53,133 bases of DNA from Calditrichota bacterium (GTDB lineage: Bacteria > Calditrichota > Calditrichia > RBG-13-44-9 > J042). The notes beneath the pieces are model-generated. The model was not told the DNA's origin, did not search any database, and worked only from the letters and a program-made list of their open reading frames with translations. The translations under genes were made by a program, and so were the position numbers. Numbering within the stretch: the stretch's first letter is position 1; each line of letters opens with the position of its first letter. The stretch lies in the NCBI GenBank assembly GCA_013150955.1, contig JAADJD010000034.1, positions 45,062-98,194 of the forward strand, written 5' to 3'. Below, piece after piece: positions 3,894 through 53,133 of this stretch.

Positions 3894-3920
3894 GGACAAC
3901 CTCCTGCACTTCGTCGTTCA

Positions 3921-5204
3921 TCAGGGCCCTGGCGCAAACACCCGAACCAACCACAGGCTTAAATCGGGGATGTAAGTAATCAGGATCAGGGCGATGAGCA
4001 GAATCAGTAAAAAGGGAATGGTGGCCAGGTACAATCGGGCAATGGGACGATTAAACCGGAAGCTGGCAATGAATAAGTTCATGCCAACCGGCGGCGTGGA
4101 GTAGCCGATTCCCAGATTGGCCAGGAAGATGATTCCCAGGTGTACCGGATCGACCCCGAAATTTTCGGCGATAGGAATGATCAGCGGGACGATGACCATG
4201 ATGGCCGAGAAGATGTCCATCAGCGCGCCGACAATCAGCAGAAAAATGTTGAGAGTCAATAAAAACAGCGCCTTGCTGGTAATGAATTGTTTCATAAATT
4301 CCAGAAGCACCATGGGGATTTCCGCATCGATCATGTAGTTGGCCAGTCCCATGGCGGCTCCCAGGATCACCAGAATGCCCCCTACCAGCACCATGCTTTC
4401 GCGCATGACCCGCGGCAAATCGCGGATGGGGTGAATGTCCCGATAGATGACGATTTCGATAAACAGGGCATAAAATGCGGTGACGGCGGCGGCTTCCGTT
4501 GCGGTGAAGAATCCCCCGTAAATGCCTACCAGAATAATAAACGGCAGCGGAATTTCCCAGGCAGCCTCGCGAATGGCCCGGATGGCGTTCTTCCAGGAAA
4601 AGGGAGTGGTGGGCAATTTCAAATCTTTTACATACAGAACCCCATAAACAGATAACAGAGTGATCATGATGATGCTGGGAATGATGCCGGCAATGAACAG
4701 TTTGTCGATGCTGACGCCGCTGACCAGTCCATAAAGAATGATGGGCAGGCTGGGCGGAAACAGCAGGCCCAGGTTTCCAGAGGCCGTGAGAATACCCAGG
4801 GTGAATTTTTCGGGGTACTGTTCGTTTCGCAGCACGGGGTATAGCAATCCTCCCAGCGCGATGATGGTCACCCCGGAGGCACCGGTAAATGCGGTGAAGA
4901 CGGCACAGGAGACCAGGGTCACAATGGAGAGTCCACCCGGTATCCAGCCGAACAGGGCACGGGAAAGATTGACCAGCCGTCGCGGAGAATTGCTCTCGGC
5001 CAGAAGATATCCCGCAAATGTAAACAGTGGAATGGCCAGCAAAATGGGAGCGTTGGCCAGGCGGTACAATTCCACAATAACGGCGGAGGTGTCGATATCC
5101 GCTGCATGGAAGGCCATCAGGGCAATGGCGCTGATGATAGCAAACAGGGGAGTTCCCACCAGTGCCAGCAATAGCAGAACAATGCCGATGAGCAGGATCG
5201 TCAT
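3921..5204 (-). CDS. dctM: TRAP transporter large permease (DctM)
   Basis: This 427-residue, very hydrophobic inner-membrane protein is the transport-forming subunit of a tripartite ATP-independent periplasmic transporter, which uses an ion gradient to import organic acids or related solutes. About 12 membrane segments are visible. Typical signatures are FTFAGYLLAESNSPRRLV near residue 65, FTGASGVTIIALGGLLYPVL, NLGLLFPPSLPIILYG, and, near the C-terminus, GIIFLANLGIGYSTPPVGMNLFIASF. Length is normal for the family. The start ATG overlaps the dctQ stop (ATGA), so dctQ and dctM are translationally coupled. The substrate cannot be deduced from this subunit. Confidence 0.93.
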   Translation of the reverse strand: MTILLIGIVLLLLALVGTPLFAIISAIALMAFHAADIDTSAVIVELYRLANAPILLAIPLFTFAGYLLAESNSPRRLVNLSRALFGWIPGGLSIVTLVSCAVFTAFTGASGVTIIALGGLLYPVLRNEQYPEKFTLGILTASGNLGLLFPPSLPIILYGLVSGVSIDKLFIAGIIPSIIMITLLSVYGVLYVKDLKLPTTPFSWKNAIRAIREAAWEIPLPFIILVGIYGGFFTATEAAAVTAFYALFIEIVIYRDIHPIRDLPRVMRESMVLVGGILVILGAAMGLANYMIDAEIPMVLLEFMKQFITSKALFLLTLNIFLLIVGALMDIFSAIMVIVPLIIPIAENFGVDPVHLGIIFLANLGIGYSTPPVGMNLFIASFRFNRPIARLYLATIPFLLILLIALILITYIPDLSLWLVRVFAPGP

Positions 5205-5725
5205 GGTGCCGATTCCGTTTTATCGGTTGAGTCTGTTGCCGGTGCAATTAAATTGAGTCCATTCTGCAAAATGTGCAGCAGAAACCGGAAGCCGATCAGA
5301 CCAAAACCGATGGGAATGATCAACTGAAAGATCCACACGGGTAGACCGGCAAACAGTTCGCTGCCGCCTTCTTTTTCGAATACCACCATCCGCCAGGCGG
5401 CTTTCATCAGGACGTACGCCACGATGACGGTGATACTGTCCACCACAATCTGTACCAGGGGAACGAAACGTTTGGGTAAGATCCGGGTGAGCACATCGAT
5501 GTTGATGTGCTTTTTCTCGCGGGTGGCCAGGGAAGCCCCGATAAAGCCGACCCACAGAACCAGATGCCGCAGAAAGATATCACCCCACAGGATGCCGGTG
5601 GAAAAAAAATTCCGTAGCACAACCTGAAGGAAGGCCAGAAGCACCATCGTCCCCAGGATGAGGACAATCAGGCTGTTTTCGACCAGATAGAGTCCTTTAT
5701 CCAGATACTGCAGTGTTTTGCGCAT
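5201..5725 (-). CDS. dctQ: TRAP transporter small permease (DctQ)
   Basis: This 174-residue inner-membrane protein has four predicted membrane segments and the DctQ hallmarks: LVENSLIVLILGTMVLLAF in the first helix, then NFFSTGILWGDIFLRHLVLWVGFIGASLATREKKHINIDVLTRILP. The 'W.GD...R..V.W..F.GA..A.R...HI..D' pattern is diagnostic. DctQ binds DctM and couples to the periplasmic receptor. It starts 13 nt after dctP stops and overlaps dctM by 4 nt. The last ~20 residues are a Thr/Asp/Ser-rich cytoplasmic tail with no known role. Confidence 0.92.
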   Translation of the reverse strand: MRKTLQYLDKGLYLVENSLIVLILGTMVLLAFLQVVLRNFFSTGILWGDIFLRHLVLWVGFIGASLATREKKHINIDVLTRILPKRFVPLVQIVVDSITVIVAYVLMKAAWRMVVFEKEGGSELFAGLPVWIFQLIIPIGFGLIGFRFLLHILQNGLNLIAPATDSTDKTESAP

Positions 5726-5738
5726 TGGACAATCGCCA

Positions 5739-6746
5739 TTATTGTGAAGAAGACTTTCGGGCGCGGAACTCCTCCAGGGCGGTTTCGATGCGGGTCAAAA
5801 ACTCCTGGCTGTAAAGCTTGCCCACCAGGTTGCGTCGAGCGCGGGCACCGGCCTCGTAGAAAGCACCCAGATTCTCCTCCGGCACGTGCACCAGTTGAAT
5901 CCCGTTTTTCAGCATGATTTCGATGGCCTTCTCGTTATCCACCCGGCTCTGTTTGATGAGCTCCGCCATGTGCTCCCGCCCTTTTTCAATCAACAATCGC
6001 TGATATTTTTCCGGCAGTTTGTTAAACATTCGATTGGAGATTAAGATGGCACCGGTGGCATCGGCCAGGGGCACATCCATCATGTATTTGACTTTGGTGT
6101 ACCATTGCAGGGACACACAGGCCAGTGGAGAGGTGTAAACCGCTTCGATCAGGTTGGTTTGCAGAGACGTCAACACATCGGTTACCGAGAGGGGAATGGC
6201 GCTTACCCCCAGCGCCCTGAAGGTGGCCTCGGCAACCGGATCCCCTTCCCACATCCACATTTTGGTATTTTTCAAATCCTGCAGGGTGGTGATGGGCTTT
6301 TTCGAATACACGTACACAAAACCCACTTCTGTCCAGCCAATCAGCGCATAACCCACTTTCCGGAATTTCTCGAAGAATTCGTCATACAGCAGGTTGGTGA
6401 TGTAGTCGATCTCTTCGTAATTGCGGAACAGCAGGGGGGCATCCAGGATGCGCACTTCCGGGAGAATTTCGCCCAGTCCCACACCGGTAAATCCCGCACT
6501 GTGGAGCTGTCCTAAACGGATCTTGCGCAACACGTCTTTTTCATCCCCCTGAATCCCACCGGCGTAAATCTTAAAGCGCACTTCACCATTGGTCAATTCG
6601 CGAATCTCAGCATCAAAGGCTTTCATCACGTTCAGCCAGGTGGAACCTTCGGGGGCCAGGGTGGCAAATTTGATCACATATTTTTTCTGGGCATACAGTG
6701 GCATGCTTAGCCAGAACAGCAACAAAAGGATGAGCCATTTCCGCAC
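5739..6746 (-). CDS. dctP: TRAP transporter substrate-binding protein (DctP/TatP-like)
   Basis: This 335-residue periplasmic solute receptor has a signal peptide (MRKWLILLLLFWLSMPLYAQ, cleavage likely after YA). It begins YVIKFATLAPEGSTWLNVMKAFDAEI, the classic DctP opening, and continues with GLGEILPEVRILDAPLLFRNYEEIDYI, FVYVYSKKPITTLQDLKNTKMWMW, and LQTNLIEAVYTSPLA. The start is GTG at 6746 with GGGAGG and a 6-nt spacer. It heads the dctPQM operon on the minus strand; the AT-rich stretch near 6870-6920 probably holds the promoter. Receptors of this subgroup often pair with a TatT lipoprotein, and such a gene lies nearby (9160-10038). The substrate is unknown. Confidence 0.92.
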   Translation of the reverse strand: MRKWLILLLLFWLSMPLYAQKKYVIKFATLAPEGSTWLNVMKAFDAEIRELTNGEVRFKIYAGGIQGDEKDVLRKIRLGQLHSAGFTGVGLGEILPEVRILDAPLLFRNYEEIDYITNLLYDEFFEKFRKVGYALIGWTEVGFVYVYSKKPITTLQDLKNTKMWMWEGDPVAEATFRALGVSAIPLSVTDVLTSLQTNLIEAVYTSPLACVSLQWYTKVKYMMDVPLADATGAILISNRMFNKLPEKYQRLLIEKGREHMAELIKQSRVDNEKAIEIMLKNGIQLVHVPEENLGAFYEAGARARRNLVGKLYSQEFLTRIETALEEFRARKSSSQ

Positions 6747-6977
6747 GGCAGACCTCCCTTCATTTGATTCTGTCTTTGCAGAAATCCAGGCGCTTCCGGG
6801 TAACCCCTTTGTGCTTCGGTTGAGCCGGATGGTGCACCCCGGATCGCCCGTACCGGACGCCGGAAGACTCTAAATTAAAAATAAAAATTTTTAAAACGAA
6901 AAGAATAAAATTAAAACGGGGGATGGGCACCGGGCCGATCCGTACCTGCACGCTCTCCCGATCGTTTCGACCCGGTT
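6747..6977. other. Upstream region of the dctPQM operon
   Basis: No gene is evident. The part next to dctP contains its GGGAGG ribosome site and, further upstream, a very AT-rich block at about 6870-6920 (runs of A and T on both strands) that is a plausible promoter region on the minus strand. A short GC-rich segment follows before the repeat cluster begins. I could not fix -35/-10 boxes with confidence. Confidence 0.4.
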
Positions 6978-7431
6978 TAACCCGGAATATGTTTAAGAAC
7001 CGCGAATGACACGAATGAACGCAAAATGCATTAAAACCAAATAATGCATGAAACCACGAATCACGCGAATGAATTCAAAAAAATCAACAAGATAGCGAAT
7101 ATATCCGGGAAAACATTTTCATCCAGATAGAATCCAGTGCATTTTATTATTTTTATTGGTGTTAATTCGTGTAATTCGTAGGAATTCGTAGGCTAATGCA
7201 TAATCTGGGATAATGCATGAAACCACGAGTCACGCGAATTTTGTGTAATTCAGGATTAACCCAAATCATGTGATAAACCGCGAATCACACGAATGAAACC
7301 AAAAATATCCACAAATTCACAAATTAACCCGAAAACAAATTCCCGTCCAGATATTACTCGATGTATTTTATTATTTTTATTGATGTTCATTCGTGTAATT
7401 CGTAGGCTAACACATAATCTGGGTTTAACGG
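6978..7431. repeat. Cluster of palindromic repeat R (two units plus extra arms)
   Basis: Two complete units of the dispersed palindrome, in the same orientation as at 2966-3305, are preceded and joined by extra partial arms ('CGAATGACACGAATGAAC', 'ACCACGAGTCACGCGAATT'). The right terminus '...GCTAACACATAATCTGGGTTT' runs into the stop codon of the MFS gene at 7425. Apparent short reading frames here are repeat translations. Confidence 0.85.
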
Positions 7432-8678
7432 GAATCCGGGTGCAGTTCCGCCAGTTGAGGATGGCGTTCGCGCATGCGGATACCAATGATCAACCCCGAT
7501 AGCGCGCTCAAAATCCCGATGGCGATGATGGGAATTTCCAGATGGAAGGCATCGGCCAGGATGCCGGTCAGGATGGCCCCGAAGACGTAGCCGCTGTCTC
7601 GCCACAAACGGAAAATCCCCACGGAATGGGCTCGCTGGTGGGGGTGGGTATTGTCGGCAATGGCCGCCAGAAAAGTGGGGTACACCATGGCCGTGCCGAT
7701 TCCCAGCAGCGCCGCCAGGATAAAATAGGCCCAGAAGCTTTGTGCAAACACCAGCCCGATTAAGGTGGCGCCCTGGAGAATCATCCCCCAGAAAAGCAGC
7801 GGCTTCCGGCCCAGATGATCCGATAACTTTCCGGTAATGAGCTGTCCCGCTCCCCAGAAAGCCGGGTAAATGGCCGTTAGAATCCCGATGGCTTTCAGGG
7901 AAAAGCCTTTGGAGGCCAGTAGCAGGGGGAACAGTCCCCACATCATTCCATCGTTCAGATTGTTGATCATTCCGGCCTGAGTGACTGAGGAGAGGTTGGG
8001 ATGGAGAAAGCTGGTTTGCAGGAAAATGTTTTTCATTTCGCTTTGCCGGGACTGGCGAGCCTCCAGCTGAACGTGGGGGATGGTATCCCGCACGAAGGCC
8101 ACGCTAAAAAGGAGCCCCAGGAACGCGATGCCGATGCCCACCACAAAGGGATAGGGACGCAGGCCATATTCGGCCGCCACCCAGCCGGTAATAAATGCCA
8201 GCAGCGCCACGGAGATGTAGCCGGCAAATTCGTTTAATCCCATGGCCAGACCGCGATTTTTCTGGCCGACCAGATCAATCTTCATAACCACCGTTGTAGA
8301 CCAGGTCAGTCCCTGGTTGAGACCCAGCAACACGTTCGCAAATACCACCAGCGACCAGTCTCTGGCCAGCATTAGCAGAAATGGAACCGGCAAACCAATC
8401 AACCAGCCCAGGATCAGCAGGTTTTTTCGTCCCCAGCGGGTGGCCAGCGCTCCGGCCAGATAGTTGGCCAGTGCTTTCACAAATCCAAACACAATAATAA
8501 AGGAAAAAATTGCCGTGCGGCTATCCAGTTGAAAATCCTGACTGGCAATTTCGGGAAGAATGCTCCGCTCCAGGCCCACCATCCCGCCCACAAAGGCGTT
8601 AATGATGACCAGGAGGGTGAATTGCTGCCAGTTGGCCTTTAAGCCCAGACGGGGTGTCGCTGTGGAATCTATCGTCAT
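7425..8678 (-). CDS. MFS transporter
   Basis: This 417-residue major facilitator superfamily permease has about 12 membrane helices. The opening is FTLLVIINAFVGGMVGLERSILPEIA, and the loop after helix 2 reads LAGALATRWGRKNLLILGW, a good match to the MFS motif A (G...D/R.GR+). A second copy, ITGKLSDHLGRKPLLFWG, marks the other half. Start: ATG at 8678 with AAAGGAA 8 nt upstream; an in-frame ATG at 8753 lies too far upstream. The substrate is unknown. The gene sits alone between repeat clusters and separates the TatT lipoprotein gene from dctPQM. Its stop codon lies inside the terminus of a repeat copy. Confidence 0.88.
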   Translation of the reverse strand: MTIDSTATPRLGLKANWQQFTLLVIINAFVGGMVGLERSILPEIASQDFQLDSRTAIFSFIIVFGFVKALANYLAGALATRWGRKNLLILGWLIGLPVPFLLMLARDWSLVVFANVLLGLNQGLTWSTTVVMKIDLVGQKNRGLAMGLNEFAGYISVALLAFITGWVAAEYGLRPYPFVVGIGIAFLGLLFSVAFVRDTIPHVQLEARQSRQSEMKNIFLQTSFLHPNLSSVTQAGMINNLNDGMMWGLFPLLLASKGFSLKAIGILTAIYPAFWGAGQLITGKLSDHLGRKPLLFWGMILQGATLIGLVFAQSFWAYFILAALLGIGTAMVYPTFLAAIADNTHPHQRAHSVGIFRLWRDSGYVFGAILTGILADAFHLEIPIIAIGILSALSGLIIGIRMRERHPQLAELHPDSR

Positions 8679-8762
8679 CGGAATGGTTCCTTTCAAATGG
8701 ATTGATGTTAAATCGATGTTTGCAGATGGCCTTAACCATGGCCGCTTACCCATATATAATTG

Positions 8763-8775
8763 ATATCATCGATAT
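8763..8775. promoter_or_regulatory. Hyphenated palindrome upstream of the MFS gene
   Basis: ATATCATCGATAT is a 5+3+5 perfect hyphenated palindrome 85 nt upstream of the MFS start, next to a TATATATG stretch that could be the minus-strand -10 region. It may be an operator. Single occurrence; weak evidence. Confidence 0.3.
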
Positions 8776-8823
8776 TGTGATGCATTAGGGGATGGTCGGG
8801 TTACATAAAAATGCTGTTTTTAT

Positions 8824-9165
8824 CCCAGATAATGCATTAAACCGCGAATCACGCGAATGAAACCTAAAAATATTTATCCCAAATTATGCAATAAACCGCG
8901 AATCACACGAATGAAACCCAAAAATATCTACAAAATCGTGAATAAACCACAAAACACATTTTCATACAGACACAATCAAATGTATTATATTGGTTTTATT
9001 TGTGTTGATTCGTGTCATTCGTAGGCTAATGCATAATCTGGGTTTATAAAATCGCGAATAAACCCTGAAACAAATTTTCATCCAGACATAATCCAATGTA
9101 TTTTTATGTTTTTATTTGTGTTAATTCGTGTAATTTGTGGTTCTAATGCATAATCTGGGTTAAAA
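8824..9165. repeat. Cluster of palindromic repeat R
   Basis: An extra left arm (8824-8880), one full unit, and a second partial unit (from about 9047) with only the centre and right arm fill the gap between the MFS and TatT genes. Orientation matches the other left-side copies. The right terminus 'TAATGCATAATCTGGGTTA' overlaps the TatT stop codon at 9160-9162. No gene is seen between 8679 and 9159 other than the MFS leader. Confidence 0.85.
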
Positions 9166-47467: not shown

Positions 47468-47646
47468 CGCCCCTCGCGAAAGGGAAGAAACCGGAGGCGC
47501 ACGTCCGGGGCATGCCGGTGCCCTGAGGAGCAACGGATTTTCCCCGTCCCCCCATGTTGGGTAATTGCCAACTGTCAACTGAAAGCTTCGTCAAAAAATT
47601 TTAAAAAAACCTCTTGGAATGGGGATTTTTTGTCGTAACTTAGAGG

Positions 47647-47664
47647 TTAGTGAGTATTTACTAA
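47647..47664. promoter_or_regulatory. Putative TetR operator upstream of tetR
   Basis: TTAGTGAGTATTTACTAA is an 18-bp near-palindrome (7 of 9 half-site pairs match) ending 11 nt before the tetR start. A similar element (13 of 18 identical) lies just before the RND gene, as expected for autoregulation. Confidence 0.55.
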
Positions 47665-47675
47665 TGAGGAGTTTT

Positions 47676-48254
47676 ATGTTTACCCGAAGACAACAGGAAA
47701 TCGTCGAAGCGGCAATCGATCTCATCGCCGAAGACGGCATCCAGAATCTAACCATCAAAAACCTGTCCCGGCGCATCGGCGTCACCGAAGCCGCTATCTA
47801 TCGCCATTTCGAAAGCAAACTGGATATCCTTTTAGCCATTCTCACGTTCTTCCGGGAACAGCAAACCGCTTTGTTTCAGAGCATCCAGCAGCAGCATCAT
47901 CGGGCATTGGATCGACTAAAAACGTTTTTTATAGAGCGGTTCCGCCAATTTACCCGGAAACCGGCCCTGGCAGCGGTCATCTTCTCCGAAGAAATTTTCC
48001 AGAACGATCCCCGCCTGGTGAAAATGATCAACGAAATTATGGACATGACCCTGAAATACGTCCGCGGGGTGATTCTGGAAGGCCAGAGTGCAGCCGAAAT
48101 CCGCACCGATATTTCCGATGAACAGCTGTCCCTGATGGCCCTTGGGGGAATGCGTTTGCTGGTCGCTCGCTGGCACCTCAGCGATCATCCGTTTGATCTG
48201 CTTCAGGAAGGCGAACGATTGTGGGAGGCGATTCAACAGATACTGGAAGTGTGA
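47676..48254 (+). CDS. TetR/AcrR family transcriptional regulator
   Basis: This 192-residue repressor has an N-terminal helix-turn-helix (~5-50, RRQQEIVEAAIDLIAEDGIQNLTIKNLSRRIGVTEAAIYRHFESKLDILLAIL) with the TetR signature 'AIYRHFESK'. The helical ligand domain is followed by the end LMALGGMRLLVARWHLSDHPFDLLQEGERLWEAIQQIL. I choose ATG 47676 because AGGAG lies 5-6 nt upstream; ATGs at 47664 and 47619 are less likely. It directly precedes the RND exporter operon, and similar operator-like palindromes flank it on both sides, so it likely represses itself and the exporter. The ligand is unknown; a lipid or fatty acid would suit the context. Confidence 0.9.
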   Translation: MFTRRQQEIVEAAIDLIAEDGIQNLTIKNLSRRIGVTEAAIYRHFESKLDILLAILTFFREQQTALFQSIQQQHHRALDRLKTFFIERFRQFTRKPALAAVIFSEEIFQNDPRLVKMINEIMDMTLKYVRGVILEGQSAAEIRTDISDEQLSLMALGGMRLLVARWHLSDHPFDLLQEGERLWEAIQQILEV

Positions 48255-48274
48255 AAAATTTTTTGAAATGGAAG

Positions 48275-48292
48275 TAAGTAAACATTTACAAA
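48275..48292. promoter_or_regulatory. Putative TetR operator upstream of RND exporter
   Basis: TAAGTAAACATTTACAAA matches the site upstream of tetR at 13 of 18 positions and contains the core GTAAACATTTAC. It lies 14 nt before the exporter start and so would overlap the promoter or ribosome-site region. Confidence 0.5.
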
Positions 48293-48305
48293 CAAGGAGA
48301 TTCTT

Positions 48306-50633
48306 ATGATTCACTGGATTGACCAACTGCTCAACAAACCGCTGAGGGCGCTTCTCATCCTGCTGGGTATCTCAGCCGTGTTTTTTGTAACCATGCGTAA
48401 TAACTCCCGAATGGAAACCGATCTGGATAAATATATGCCCCAGAATCATCCCGCCTTCATTTACAGCAATCAGGCCGAAGACTGGTTTGACATCAAAGAT
48501 GGGATCATTATTGCCCTGGAAAATCCACAGGGGATTTATCATCCCACCACCTTGAGGAAGGTGAAAGATCTTACCCGAAAACTCCAGAAAATGCCCGAAA
48601 TCGAGAAAAACGATGTGACCTCATTGTACACCGCAGACAACATTGTGGGAACGGAAGATGGTCTGGATGTCAAATCATTTTACAGGCGCGTGCCGGAATC
48701 GGATGAGGCATTGAACAACTTACGCGAAAAGGTGCGCGCGAACGAGATGGTGTATGGACGCCTGGTTTCCCGTGACGAAACGGTGACCATCATCATCGCG
48801 CGGGTAGGGGACGACACCTTCTCCCAGGAATTTTATCATCGGTTAAAAGCCCTGGTGAAGGAATACGAAGGGCCGGAAAAGGTCTACATCGCCGGACGTC
48901 CCATTGTGGAAGGCACCATGGCTTATCTGGGGCCCAAAGACATGAAGCGGATGGTGCCCATCGTGATTGGGGTGATCATTCTGGTGCTTTATCTGGTGCT
49001 TCGGAATGTGCGCAGCACCCTGCTCACCCTTCTGGTGGTGGTGTTTAGCGTCATATGGACGTTTGGTTTGATGGCTTTGCTGGAAGTCCCCATTTATGCC
49101 GTGTCGACCATGATTCCGGTCATGCTGATTGCCATTGGAGTCGCCGATGGCATCCACTTATTCAGCCATCTCTATCTATTCCTGAAGGAGAATCCACAGG
49201 CCACCAAAAAAGAAGCCGTGGTGGACATGATCCGGGAAATGTGGCGTCCAGTGGTGATGACCAGTGTGACCACCGCGGTGGGTTTCGTTTCTCTGGTTAC
49301 CTCCCAGGTGTATCCCATTAAGTATTTTGGCCTGTTTACCGCTTTTGGCGTTTTGGTGGCCATGCTCTTTTCGCTGGTTTTTATTCCGGCTGGTATCATG
49401 TTGCTGGGACTGCCCCGGCCGCATAAAAAGATCGAAGATGTGGACGAGGATCGCGAGGCCGATCTGTTTGCCCACAAATTTGCGGAAGGCATTGCCCGTA
49501 AAAAATGGATCACCTTCCTGGCGGTTCATGCCGTGGTATTGTTTTCCATCATCGGAATGAATCGCGTCTGGATCAACTCCAGCTTTCTGGAAAAATTTGA
49601 AAAGGACAGCGAGATCGTTCAGACCGATCGATTCATCAATTCCCATTTTGGGGGTACCAACACGTTAAACGTGATTCTGGAAGGCGATGAAGAGGATACC
49701 TTCAAACAACCGGCCGTCTTAACGGAAATGGTTCGCATGCAGGAGGCCGTTCAACACCAGCTGCCGGTGGTGGGCAATTCGTTTTCCCTGGGGGATTACC
49801 TGAAGCGCATGAATAAAGTAATGCACGCGGATAGCGCCCGGTATGAACGCATACCCGACTCACAAAATCTGATAGCGCAATACCTGCTGCTTTACGAAAT
49901 GTCCGGTGATCCAGAAAATTTGTGGCAGGTGGTTACCGAAGATTATCAAAAGGCCAACATCACCTTTCAGCTGAAAAGCGACAATTCCCGTGCACTGAAG
50001 AAGGCCATAGCGGTGATCGAAAGTTTTCGACCCCGGTTCGAAGAGCAGGGGATTCAAATCAATTACGCCGGTTCGGGTTACAAGGCGCTGGTATTTACAG
50101 ATTTGATTCTGGAAGGTCAGATCACCAGCCTGTTGTTATCTCTGGTGATCGTCATTGCGCTGCTTGCGCTGATGTTTCGGAGTTTCACGGTTGGACTGAT
50201 TGGTGCCGTTCCCATTATCCTGACCGCCATGATCAGCTTTGGGGTGATGGGTTTGTTGAACATTCCCTTGAGCACCACCACAGCCCTGATTTCCAGCATT
50301 GCGGTGGGGATTGGGATTGATTATGCCGTCCATTTCATCGAACGGTACCGGATTTATGCCCGGCAAACGGAAAGCAAGGTAGAAACCATCAAGCTGACCA
50401 TGCATCATTCCGGGCGAGCGATCATCTTTAATGCCCTGGTGGTGATCGCCGGCTTTCTGGTCTTGTTGTTCTCCGTTTTTCCCCCCAATCGCGTGCTGGG
50501 GGCGCTGGTATCGCTCAACATGTTCACCAGTTTTCTGGGGACAATCACCATCATGTTTTTACTGCTTTACGTCACTAACATGTATTTCAAAACACCGAAA
50601 GAAACCATCATAAATAAGGAGGATAAATCATGA
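48306..50633 (+). CDS. RND/MMPL family exporter
   Basis: This 775-residue inner-membrane protein has the MMPL/SSD layout: one TM helix, a periplasmic loop (~30-210), five to six TM helices (~217-380), and the same again (loop ~430-610, helices ~615-760). Conserved text: VSTMIPVMLIAIGVADGIHLFSHLY (membrane Asp of the proton relay), MTSVTTAVGFVSLVTSQVYPIKYFGLFTAFGVLVAM, and, in the second half, STTTALISSIAVGIGIDYAVHFIERYR. Such proteins export lipids, including hopanoids (HpnN), sterols (BstA) or mycobacterial lipids (MmpL). AAGGAGA precedes the ATG. It overlaps the LolA-like gene by 4 nt. Confidence 0.93.
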   Translation: MIHWIDQLLNKPLRALLILLGISAVFFVTMRNNSRMETDLDKYMPQNHPAFIYSNQAEDWFDIKDGIIIALENPQGIYHPTTLRKVKDLTRKLQKMPEIEKNDVTSLYTADNIVGTEDGLDVKSFYRRVPESDEALNNLREKVRANEMVYGRLVSRDETVTIIIARVGDDTFSQEFYHRLKALVKEYEGPEKVYIAGRPIVEGTMAYLGPKDMKRMVPIVIGVIILVLYLVLRNVRSTLLTLLVVVFSVIWTFGLMALLEVPIYAVSTMIPVMLIAIGVADGIHLFSHLYLFLKENPQATKKEAVVDMIREMWRPVVMTSVTTAVGFVSLVTSQVYPIKYFGLFTAFGVLVAMLFSLVFIPAGIMLLGLPRPHKKIEDVDEDREADLFAHKFAEGIARKKWITFLAVHAVVLFSIIGMNRVWINSSFLEKFEKDSEIVQTDRFINSHFGGTNTLNVILEGDEEDTFKQPAVLTEMVRMQEAVQHQLPVVGNSFSLGDYLKRMNKVMHADSARYERIPDSQNLIAQYLLLYEMSGDPENLWQVVTEDYQKANITFQLKSDNSRALKKAIAVIESFRPRFEEQGIQINYAGSGYKALVFTDLILEGQITSLLLSLVIVIALLALMFRSFTVGLIGAVPIILTAMISFGVMGLLNIPLSTTTALISSIAVGIGIDYAVHFIERYRIYARQTESKVETIKLTMHHSGRAIIFNALVVIAGFLVLLFSVFPPNRVLGALVSLNMFTSFLGTITIMFLLLYVTNMYFKTPKETIINKEDKS

Positions 50634-51415
50634 AGATCTTCAAATTCGTAATGGGAATGTTGATAATGGGATGGTTTGCCCTGGATGGAATGGCCCAGCA
50701 ACCATTAACCGCCATGCAGATTATGGAAAAGGTTTACAACCGTCCCGATGGAAACGAAATGGAAGCCCGGTTGAGCATGATTCTGATCAATTCTCGCGGA
50801 AATCAGCGGGTGCGGGAAATCAAGCAGTACATCAAGGATTTTGGCGATGTGGAAAAACGGATCATGTTTTTTCTGAAGCCAGCGGATGTGCGCAATACGG
50901 CGTTCATGAACTGGAGCTATAAACATTCGGATAAGGATGATGATCAGTGGATATATTTGCCGGCACTGAAAAAGATCAAGCGGATTTCCAGCGATAGCAA
51001 GGGCGATTACTTTATGGGGTCGGATTTTACTTACGACGATCTGGGCGACCGGAAGCCGGAAGAAGATCGGCACCGGATTTTGCGGGAAGAAGTGCTGGAT
51101 GGGGAATCGTGCTATGTGATCGAAAGTATCCCCCTGGAATCGGATTACATGTATTCCCGCACGGTCACCTGGATTGTAAAGGACAAATGGATAGGCCTGA
51201 AAAAAGAATTTTACGATGAGGATGGGGATCATTTGAAAACCCTGCGAATCAAGAAGTATGAAAAAATCAAGGGTTACTGGATCATACTGGAAACGGAAAT
51301 GCACAATGTTCAGAAAAATCATACCACCATCATGCGCCTTTCCGATGTACAAATTGATGCAGGCATTCCGGCCAACATTTTTACTGAACGAATGATGCGA
51401 AGGGGGATGCGGTAA
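50630..51415 (+). CDS. LolA-like outer membrane lipoprotein-sorting protein
   Basis: This 261-residue protein has a signal peptide (MKIFKFVMGMLIMGWFALDGMAQQ) and a LolA/LolB-like beta-barrel domain. It begins PLTAMQIMEKVYNRPDGNEMEARLSMILINSRGNQRVREIKQYI and carries the block FMNWSYKHSDKDDDQWIYLPALKKIKRISSDSKGDYFMGSDFTYDDLGDRKPEEDRHRILREE. This group is usually encoded beside MMPL exporters and probably carries lipid across the periplasm. It overlaps the exporter by 4 nt and the porin by 1 nt. There is no lipobox, so it is soluble. Confidence 0.9.
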   Translation: MKIFKFVMGMLIMGWFALDGMAQQPLTAMQIMEKVYNRPDGNEMEARLSMILINSRGNQRVREIKQYIKDFGDVEKRIMFFLKPADVRNTAFMNWSYKHSDKDDDQWIYLPALKKIKRISSDSKGDYFMGSDFTYDDLGDRKPEEDRHRILREEVLDGESCYVIESIPLESDYMYSRTVTWIVKDKWIGLKKEFYDEDGDHLKTLRIKKYEKIKGYWIILETEMHNVQKNHTTIMRLSDVQIDAGIPANIFTERMMRRGMR

Positions 51416-52653
51416 TGCGGTTGTGGAAATGGTATCTGATAGTGTGGTTCGGCCTGGTTGGCGTTGGGGGAGCACAGGATCTGCAAATTTATGGTTACGT
51501 GCGCAATTATACGGGAGTGCTGTTGAATGGTGATCATGAGTATGCCATCATTCAAAACACGTTGAATCTGATTTTTGAGCAGCAAAAGGATCGGGTGGCG
51601 TTTAAAATCAATCCCTTTATTTACCAGTACCCGGATCAGGAAATGGAGCTGGATTTGCGCGAGGCTTACATGGATGTGTATTTCCCGTCATTCGATTTAC
51701 GCATTGGGCGGCAACAGATCATCTGGGGCAAAGCGGATGGGGTCTTTATTACGGACATTGTCTCCCCGAAAGATCTGAGTGAGTTTTTATTGCGGGATTT
51801 TGATGAAATCCGCATGGGGGTGACCGGTGTGAAGCTGAATTATTATCGTGGAAACAGCACACTGGAAGCGGTCTGGTTGCCGGTGTTTACCCCCACCCGG
51901 TTCCCGGATGAAACATCCCTCTGGCATGTTCAGCCGCGGCTTCCAGTGCCCATTGTACCTGCAGTGGATGCGTCCCGAAAAGAAGTCGATTTTTCCCTGC
52001 AAAACAGCGAGGTGTTTCTCCGCTATTCCACCCTCACATCGGTGGTGGATCTGGAGTTCATGGTGGCCTCTGCCTGGGATGATGATCCCACCCCTCATCT
52101 GGAAAAGCAGATCGATCCGCAAACGCGGCGGGTGGTTGGGGTGACGTTATATCCGCAGCATCATCGGTTGCAAATTGCTGGCGGAAGTTTCAGCACCACG
52201 ATTGGCCCCCTGGTATTGCGCGGAGAAGGGGCGTTTTATCGGGGCAAGTATTTTCTCAGCACCGATCCGGCCGCTTTGGACGGAGTGGAAAAGAAGGATT
52301 ATCTGCATTACCTGCTGGGAATGGATTTCAATCTCTCCAGCTGGAGACTCAGCGCTCAGTTTATTCAGCAGGCCATTCTGGATTATTCATCGGCGCTGGT
52401 CAACGATTCCCACGAAAACATGGCCACCTTTCTGGCTCGCAGGGACTACTGGAACGAAACCCTTCACCTGGAATTCTTTACCTATGTCGGATTGAACCAT
52501 CAGGACGCGCTCATTCGACCCAAAATCACCTACGATGTGGCCGATGGATTCAGCGTGCTGATAGGAGCCAACATCTTTACCGGGGATGAAGGCCTGTTTG
52601 GTCAATACGGAGAAAATGATATGCTTTATATAAAGGTGAAGTACAGTTTCTAA
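51415..52653 (+). CDS. Outer-membrane beta-barrel protein (DUF1302/porin-like)
   Basis: This 412-residue protein has a signal peptide (MRLWKWYLIVWFGLVGVGGA, cleaved before QD) and alternating beta-strands typical of outer-membrane barrels. It ends in an aromatic residue (MLYIKVKYSF), the usual outer-membrane insertion signal. The text LREAYMDVYFPSFDLRIGRQQIIWGKADGVFITDIVSPKDLSEFLLRDFDEIRMGV is like DUF1302-type porins found with MMPL and LolA-like genes. It starts on the last base of the LolA-like stop codon, so the three are one unit. The assigned role, an outer-membrane exit or lipid portal, is inference. Confidence 0.85.
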   Translation: MRLWKWYLIVWFGLVGVGGAQDLQIYGYVRNYTGVLLNGDHEYAIIQNTLNLIFEQQKDRVAFKINPFIYQYPDQEMELDLREAYMDVYFPSFDLRIGRQQIIWGKADGVFITDIVSPKDLSEFLLRDFDEIRMGVTGVKLNYYRGNSTLEAVWLPVFTPTRFPDETSLWHVQPRLPVPIVPAVDASRKEVDFSLQNSEVFLRYSTLTSVVDLEFMVASAWDDDPTPHLEKQIDPQTRRVVGVTLYPQHHRLQIAGGSFSTTIGPLVLRGEGAFYRGKYFLSTDPAALDGVEKKDYLHYLLGMDFNLSSWRLSAQFIQQAILDYSSALVNDSHENMATFLARRDYWNETLHLEFFTYVGLNHQDALIRPKITYDVADGFSVLIGANIFTGDEGLFGQYGENDMLYIKVKYSF

Positions 52654-52784: not shown

Positions 52785-53133
52785 AAACCCGGATTTTACA
52801 TTTGCCTACGAATGACACGAATTCACACCAATAAAAATCATCCCAGATTATGCATTCGCCTACGAATTACACGAATTGACACCAATAAAAATAATAAACC
52901 CAGATGATGCATTAGACCAAAAATTGCACGAATTAACACAAATAAAAATAATCAAATACATTAGATCAGATCTGGATGACAATTTATTTCTGGGTATATT
53001 CGCGATTTTGTGGGTATGGTTTGGTTTCATCCCAGATTATGCATTAAAACCACGAATTACACGAATTAACACCAATAAAAATAATAGAATACACTTGATT
53101 CTATCAGGATAAAATGTTTTCCCGGATATATTC
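52785..53133. repeat. Palindromic repeat R cluster, continuing past the window
   Basis: Three tandem left arms (from about 52786, 52848 and 52898), one centre (ATCTGGATGACAATTTATTT), then the start of another unit (CATCCCAGATTATGCATTAAAACCACGAATTACACGAAT) that runs off the end at TCAGGATAAAATG... Orientation is as at 17021 and 18667. No gene is seen after the terminator at 52729. Confidence 0.85.

Follow-up and report, generated by a model that had tools for sequence, protein, structure and literature searches.

A tetR-linked RND pump, LolA-like carrier and outer-membrane barrel in Calditrichota: a candidate mobile, inducible exporter of a hydrophobic compound

Introduction

How do hydrophobic molecules cross the periplasm once an HAE3- or MmpL-type pump has released them? 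To our knowledge this is an open question, and it is raised in compact form by a locus in a Calditrichota bacterium (assembly GCA_013150955.1, contig JAADJD010000034.1, positions 45,062 to 98,194; this whole stretch of 53,133 nucleotides is referred to here as the window). The locus comprises four genes on the forward strand (47676-52653), all with intact reading frames, encoding a TetR-family repressor, an RND exporter, a LolA-like periplasmic carrier and an outer-membrane beta-barrel. We propose, with a probability of roughly 60%, that these genes form a horizontally transmitted, self-contained, repressor-controlled inducible exporter of a hydrophobic compound.

Results

The genes and control elements of the locus are listed by position, all on the forward strand.

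47614-47641, +, probable weak tetR promoter from sequence reading (TTGGAA - 16 nucleotides - TAACTT), 5 nucleotides before operator 1
47647-47664, +, operator 1 (putative), palindrome TTAGTGAGTATTTACTAA, 5' of tetR
47676-48254, +, tetR, TetR-family repressor of 192 residues with a YsiA/FadR-like C-terminal domain (PF00440 and PF08359)
48275-48292, +, operator 2 (putative), palindrome TAAGTAAACATTTACAAA, in the tetR-RND spacer, 13 nucleotides 5' of the RND start codon
48306-50633, +, RND exporter, MMPL/HAE3-like, 775 residues (PF03176)
50630-51415, +, LolA-like periplasmic carrier, 261 residues (PF17131); signal peptide and no lipobox cysteine by sequence reading
51415-52653, +, outer-membrane beta-barrel of the DUF1302 family, 412 residues (PF06980); signal peptide and C-terminal Phe by sequence reading

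The two palindromes flanking tetR, which the initial annotation had described as similar, are identical at 13 of 18 positions, and a repeat search independently pairs 47643-47674 with 48271-48302. Within the window alone the pair is suggestive, being modestly unlikely by chance: two 18-mers, each with at least six of nine dyad pairs and at least 13 of 18 positions in common, arose in the two intergenic stretches in 118 of 5,000 first-order Markov controls and in 23 of 5,000 mononucleotide shuffles. Comparison across loci, the check that the initial annotation had suggested, confirms the observation at the sequence level. We scanned a collection of species genomes with an alignment of the pump, which yielded 279 relatives, and the best 80 were kept for locus comparison. 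A conserved form of the palindrome, TTAGTGAAYATTMACTAA, lies 5' of tetR and again 5' of the RND gene. Sites with at most five mismatches to TTAGTGAAYRTTMACTAA were found before tetR in 71 of 75 regions (the remaining five loci have no tetR within reach) and before the pump gene in 65 of 80. When a motif derived from Calditrichota was applied to loci outside that phylum, allowing up to four mismatches, it matched 43 of 66 upstream regions and 37 of 71 tetR-RND spacers, where Markov controls averaged 1.85 and 1.32, respectively. Inspection by eye of 18 other tetR loci found a GAGTGAAYRTTCACT-type site 5' of tetR in 17, often repeated before the pump gene, with a weaker site in L089; a search of 16 genomes with the GAGTGAAYRTTCACT consensus at up to two mismatches gave matches in 15, many of them at the operon locus, and fewer with a reversed control. 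This recurrence before tetR and before the RND gene across phyla supports the proposal that TetR would control the operon through two sites.

A hand count of 70 listed upstream regions found TTGACA with a -10 box ending 1-6 nucleotides before the palindrome in 31; the window's own tetR promoter is weaker than such TTGACA promoters. Because the palindrome directly follows the -10 box, the repressor would probably act by blocking initiation. We take ATG 47676 as the tetR start, not the upstream ATG 47619, because operator 1 would otherwise fall within the gene and because aligned orthologues begin at the same point. The three downstream genes overlap, as had been claimed: the RND stop codon ends at 50633 and the LolA ATG begins at 50630 (4 bases), while the LolA stop codon ends at 51415, where the barrel ATG begins (1 base). 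The spacer between the tetR stop codon and operator 2 also holds a T-tract (AAATTTTTTTA-like, 48255-48270), which is also seen between tetR and RND in several relatives (e.g. L080, L081 and L085) and might serve as a promoter element or be what is left of a terminator.

Is this repressor dedicated to the operon? Its two-site pattern has no mismatch-free match elsewhere in the 4.07-Mb genome, and at up to two mismatches the 13 matches in this genome equal the 13 obtained with a reversed-pattern control. Of those inspected, some fall within genes or at their ends and others precede a SurA-like gene (L037) or a thiolase gene (L041). As the matches are at control level we treat them as chance and reject a wider regulon in this genome; the site in this genome closest to the consensus of the relatives (C36:9148) falls between converging gene ends. 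With no other convincing site in its own genome, this TetR appears to be one regulator with one target. The match before the thiolase gene, TCTGTGAGAACTTACTTA, has two mismatches and lies about 60 nucleotides 5' of the gene (L041, 1501-1518; G000:C29:127822); it belongs to the same control-level set and, if genuine, would tie TetR to fatty-acid metabolism.

Assignment of the regulator to the TetR family is supported by PF00440 (TetR_N; 50.8 bits, cut-off 24) and PF08359 (TetR_C_4; 42.8 bits, cut-off 21). Its best solved relative is Bacillus subtilis FadR (YsiA; 3whb, E-value 5e-15), whose operator consensus has a related half-site. The two differ in that the motif here is TTAGTGA rather than TGAATGA and in that the regulator here has one local target. 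In relatives, a FadR-type tetR gene with a palindrome of the form TGAATGAACGTTCATTCA lies beside a thiolase gene (L104 in G025, 456-1082; G034:C98:25415). The presence of TGAATGAACGTTCATTCA beside such FadR-like genes suggests that the operon TetR may be akin to FadR but with an altered operator specificity.

The initial annotation had read the downstream genes as encoding an inner-membrane pump, a periplasmic carrier and an outer-membrane barrel, and the Pfam families together with predicted structures of the carrier and the barrel bear this out. The pump matches PF03176 (MMPL) in two stretches (172.3 bits, cut-off 20.5), which places it in the RND/MMPL group. Among curated RND models TIGR00921 (HAE3) scores best, at 252.9 bits against a cut-off of 351.9, and on this basis we describe the pump as HAE3-like only. 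Two more specific identities were rejected, namely the HpnN hopanoid transporter (NF052374, 31 against 1100; TIGR03480, 88.4 against 751.85) and BstA (NF045600, 20.7 bits against 1400). Residues D672, Y673, H676, H284 and H288 are invariant in all 81 alignment rows, and position 281 is Asp in 72 rows and Tyr in nine; these conserved Asp, Tyr and His residues lie in both transmembrane halves. The four genes include neither a membrane-fusion protein nor a TolC-like channel, so the set does not correspond to classical tripartite RND efflux.

The carrier matches PF17131 (LolA_like) at 223.1 bits (cut-off 30) and is also above the cut-off for DUF1329. Its predicted structure, with a mean predicted local distance difference test score (pLDDT) of 83.5, aligns to Porphyromonas gingivalis LolA3 (9tp6) with a Z-score of 29.8, a root-mean-square deviation of 2.0 over 235 residues and 40% identity. 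The structures 9tp6, 4z48 and 3bk5 are far better matches than true LolA proteins (Z about 9-12), and P. gingivalis LolB gives a Z-score of 15.3. The model therefore predicts a fold equal to that of LolA3, a protein reported to form a hydrophobic groove, to have only a weak interaction with LolB and to serve a probably distinct function; it lacks both the arginine of the LolA beta2-beta3 loop and the exposed leucine of LolB (PMC13103446, in the part consulted). The function of LolA3-type proteins is described there and in the consulted part of PMC11885536 as unclear despite one solved structure. The barrel belongs to DUF1302 (PF06980, 53.3 bits, cut-off 23.2), and its model (pLDDT 80.2) has 20 strands of at least three residues. 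In a fold search OprD/Occ porins and MOMP were tied, with chitoporins, Wzi and AlgE slightly lower (Z about 18-20.6). Since the values are tied among many porins we do not name a single closest relative; the predicted fold appears nearest to the substrate-specific OprD/Occ porins, with the exporter AlgE slightly lower.

The order tetR-RND-LolA-barrel on one strand is found in 60 of the 80 loci. The other 20 are incomplete, mostly where little contig is left, and L134, L150, L154 and L193 are less clear. The loci come from Calditrichota, Bacteroidota, Chlorobiota/Melioribacteraceae, Neomarinimicrobiota, Aminicenantes, Cloacimonadota, Delongbacteria, KSB1, WOR-3, Latescibacterota and Spirochaetes, among others, a spread that mis-binning may inflate as all 80 are metagenome-derived. 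Mean pairwise identity across 57 loci is 57-68% for barrel, carrier and pump. Mirror-tree correlations (r 0.52-0.77) still contain shared ancestry and were not used as evidence. In a quickly built tree from 81 RND rows, phylum labels require 29 changes, where the minimum is 11 and the shuffled mean 49.2; the window sits on a long branch (0.54) and its exact placement is unsure.

The distribution is also patchy close to the window. A TetR match at an E-value of 1e-12 or better occurs in 26 of 60 relatives of its genome, not all of which are orthologues, and the same-genus genome G001 has no TetR match at that threshold and a best pump of 33% identity. In G001, G005 and G007 (L209, L210 and L211) a conserved lipoprotein gene comes after lgt, with an extra open frame between the two in G001; a pyrR-type gene and further genes come next in G001 and G007, though not in G005. 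In the window's genome the operon takes this place after lgt, up to the contig end (47467-53133), and contig C29 (L216) carries the lipoprotein and pyrR-type genes from base 558 onwards. The last 90 bases of the window are identical to the first 90 of C29; because they belong to a dispersed repeat, the join is likely but not proven. The operon here therefore likely separates lgt from the lipoprotein gene that adjoins it in three relatives. Judged from these sequence comparisons, the operon is mobile, gained horizontally, and moves between phyla. The repeat itself is AT-rich (cacgaattnacacnaataaaaat...) and fills the spacer after the operon (52800-53133), with related sequence at the start of C29 (L216, 1-370) and upstream of the thiolase gene (L041, about 1300-1440).

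Recurrent neighbours of the 80 loci are a cupin (16), an unassigned 301-residue protein (13), DUF2147 (12), DUF3943 (9), an ABC ATPase (7), a YtfJ-like protein (6) and a hybrid-cluster protein (6, named by eye), besides small membrane proteins. L187 holds a cytochrome c'-like protein that falls 0.1 bit short of its cut-off, and L081 holds a relative of it. These neighbours may be stress or redox companions. No recognised lipid-biosynthesis family, beta-oxidation gene or iron-uptake family recurs beside the operon in these loci. In five loci (L129, L130, L148, L151 and L157) a split ArsP_1 permease, encoded by two adjoining genes, lies between pump and carrier.

Discussion

The model that we favour starts from what was observed at these loci, namely the protein families, gene order, gene overlaps, operator conservation and transfer between lineages. 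TetR would bind the 18-bp palindrome behind its own -10 box and again before the RND gene, holding the operon low. Because it has a FadR-like ligand domain, we expect that TetR is released on binding a small hydrophobic or amphiphilic compound, possibly one that is acyl-CoA-like or membrane-partitioning. The pump would then draw the compound from the inner membrane by proton flow, as its family and its conserved Asp and His residues suggest, and pass it to the soluble LolA3-type carrier, which would shield it across the periplasm. Because the carrier and barrel families travel together, the carrier would probably unload into the dedicated barrel. Such a carrier would take the place of a rigid channel, with no membrane-fusion protein or TolC partner encoded.

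Several points weigh against this interpretation. The regulator reaches only 74.5 bits on the model of Bacillus-type FadR (NF053878; equivalog cut-off 200), an identity that we reject. The most conserved stretch of the barrel in an alignment of 20 (WGKADGVFITD..SPKDL.EFLL.DFDEIR, about residues 103-132) falls between strands 5 and 6, in a loop that the model predicts with low confidence. The GC content of the operon genes (45.7-51.6%) brackets that of the window (49.8%) and gives no sign of recent arrival. By analogy, the requirement for DUF1302 and DUF1329 proteins during growth of Pseudomonas putida on Tween 20 (PMC10866462, in the part consulted) could mean uptake, and the induction by iron or hemin shortage of a P. 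gingivalis operon of like make-up (PMC10434189 and PMC10470040, in the parts consulted) would fit neither solvent efflux nor acyl-CoA sensing. The latter objection is softened because the Prevotella nigrescens version is only 24/40/29% identical (pump/carrier/barrel).

The initial annotation had called the operon a lipid export line. The line of pump, carrier and barrel stands; the lipid cargo fares less well, given mobility, local repression and the lack of recurrent lipid-synthesis genes. For the same reasons (a mobile operon, a single-target TetR and no such genes recurring nearby) inducible efflux fits at least as well as lipid delivery and is the explanation that we favour. In a first alternative, which is unlikely but has the best standing of those considered, the set carries one of the cell's own envelope lipids or pigments to the outer membrane, as for sterols by BstABC or as proposed for flexirubin with LolA2/LolB2. 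It would account for the pairing of a LolA-superfamily carrier with an MMPL pump, and specialised LolA/LolB proteins are found in flexirubin clusters (PMC11885536). One relative (L078 in G017, 3918-9151) has a TetR orthologue and its palindrome but no pump operon beside them; downstream of this tetR, in the same orientation, come redoxin, RelA-like, MlaE, ABC ATPase and MlaD genes. However, G017 showed no second such palindrome within 300 nucleotides 3' of tetR. The low BstA score of the pump and the patchy distribution of the operon also speak against lipid delivery.

A slightly less probable alternative reverses the direction, with barrel and carrier importing fatty acids, alkyl esters or hydrocarbons and the FadR-like TetR switching the operon on at high acyl-CoA. 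Besides the FadR-like regulator and the Tween 20 phenotype, it would accommodate a protein with MMPL and LolA-like domains that is up 42-fold on C28 alkane in Thalassolituus (PMC6304351, in the part consulted). Set against these are the lack of beta-oxidation genes among the recurrent neighbours and the separate FadR-type TetR with TGAATGAACGTTCATTCA that adjoins the thiolase gene in L104. Least probable, and in our view improbable, is export of a metallophore-like compound or a tetrapyrrole under iron shortage, which the P. gingivalis and Prevotella operons suggest. Expression of PG1175-PG1181 is up 13- to 136-fold when iron is lacking, and a hemin-limitation list is topped by the genes for TetR, carrier and MMPL pump (both in the consulted parts of PMC10434189 and PMC10470040); PG1178-PG1180 are up in an hmuS mutant (PMC13227078, likewise in part). 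These data concern a different clade, however, at the low identities given above, and no iron-uptake family recurs near the loci studied here.

Returning to inducible export, we tentatively raise a broader possibility, in which we place less trust: the loci may represent a distinct cross-phylum class of shuttle-type exporter, in which pump, soluble carrier and substrate-specific barrel, lacking a membrane-fusion protein or TolC and having their own ligand-sensing repressor and conserved TTAGTGAAYATTMACTAA operator, form a mobile unit for one class of hydrophobic compound. Such a class would span Calditrichota, Bacteroidota, Ignavibacteriota, Neomarinimicrobiota, Aminicenantes and others. The operon would suggest a role for LolA3-type carriers, and as a compact line of three proteins that brings its own regulator and operator it makes cargo, regulator ligand and carrier-barrel contacts testable in one small system.

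Comparison with known systems

In the mostly open-access literature consulted on DUF1302/DUF1329, FadR/YsiA, LolA-like proteins with RND pumps, lipoprotein-sorting proteins with MMPL and TetR, LolA3 and PG1179-PG1181, we found no description of this operon clade. BstABC, to which the initial annotation had likened it, resembles the operon in combining an RND pump with periplasmic and outer-membrane-side partners, but membership does not hold: the pump is not BstA by the curated model, and the folds of BstB and BstC presumably differ from those of the carrier and barrel.

Similar in make-up are PG1178-PG1181 of P. gingivalis and related sets in Prevotella, which have a TetR, an MMPL pump and a LolA-like carrier, P. 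nigrescens adding a DUF1302 protein; pump, carrier and barrel are in the same order as here. The nearest solved relative of the carrier, LolA3 (9tp6, PGN0947), also comes from P. gingivalis. These operons differ in responding to iron or hemin, in low identity to the genes here and, in the Prevotella arrangement tetR-ABC-ABC-MMPL-LolA-DUF1302, in two added ABC transporter genes. We set the iron link aside as a direct cue because of that low identity, which was measured with the P. nigrescens set. In P. putida (PP_0765, PP_0766, PP_2018 and PP_2019) a DUF1302 barrel, a DUF1329 carrier and an efflux transporter are predicted to cooperate, but they occupy two separate loci, include a further periplasmic protein and, in the part of PMC10866462 consulted, act in an unsettled direction.

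The likeness to RND-DUF1329-DUF1302 sets that the initial annotation had pointed out is supported by AmeABCD of Castellaniella defragrans, which combines an HAE3-type RND pump, a LolA-superfamily (DUF1329) periplasmic protein and a DUF1302 protein in one cassette. As described in the consulted text of PMC6394551, it exports apolar monoterpenes, and on its loss monoterpenes are tolerated less well and more Nile Red accumulates. AmeABCD differs in having four components, AmeC being a further periplasmic protein, in the lengths of AmeA (605 residues) and AmeB (451 residues) against 412 and 261 here, and in gene order, with ameABC upstream of ameD where the operon has pump-carrier-barrel; that text mentions no dedicated TetR with paired operators. 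The operon is not AmeABCD itself, as 48306-52653 contains no AmeC gene, the overlapping genes leaving no space for one. AmeABCD, the P. putida pair and the P. gingivalis/Prevotella operon would, by analogy, point to differing cargo. As an analogue, AmeABCD appears to be the best functional precedent for the operon.

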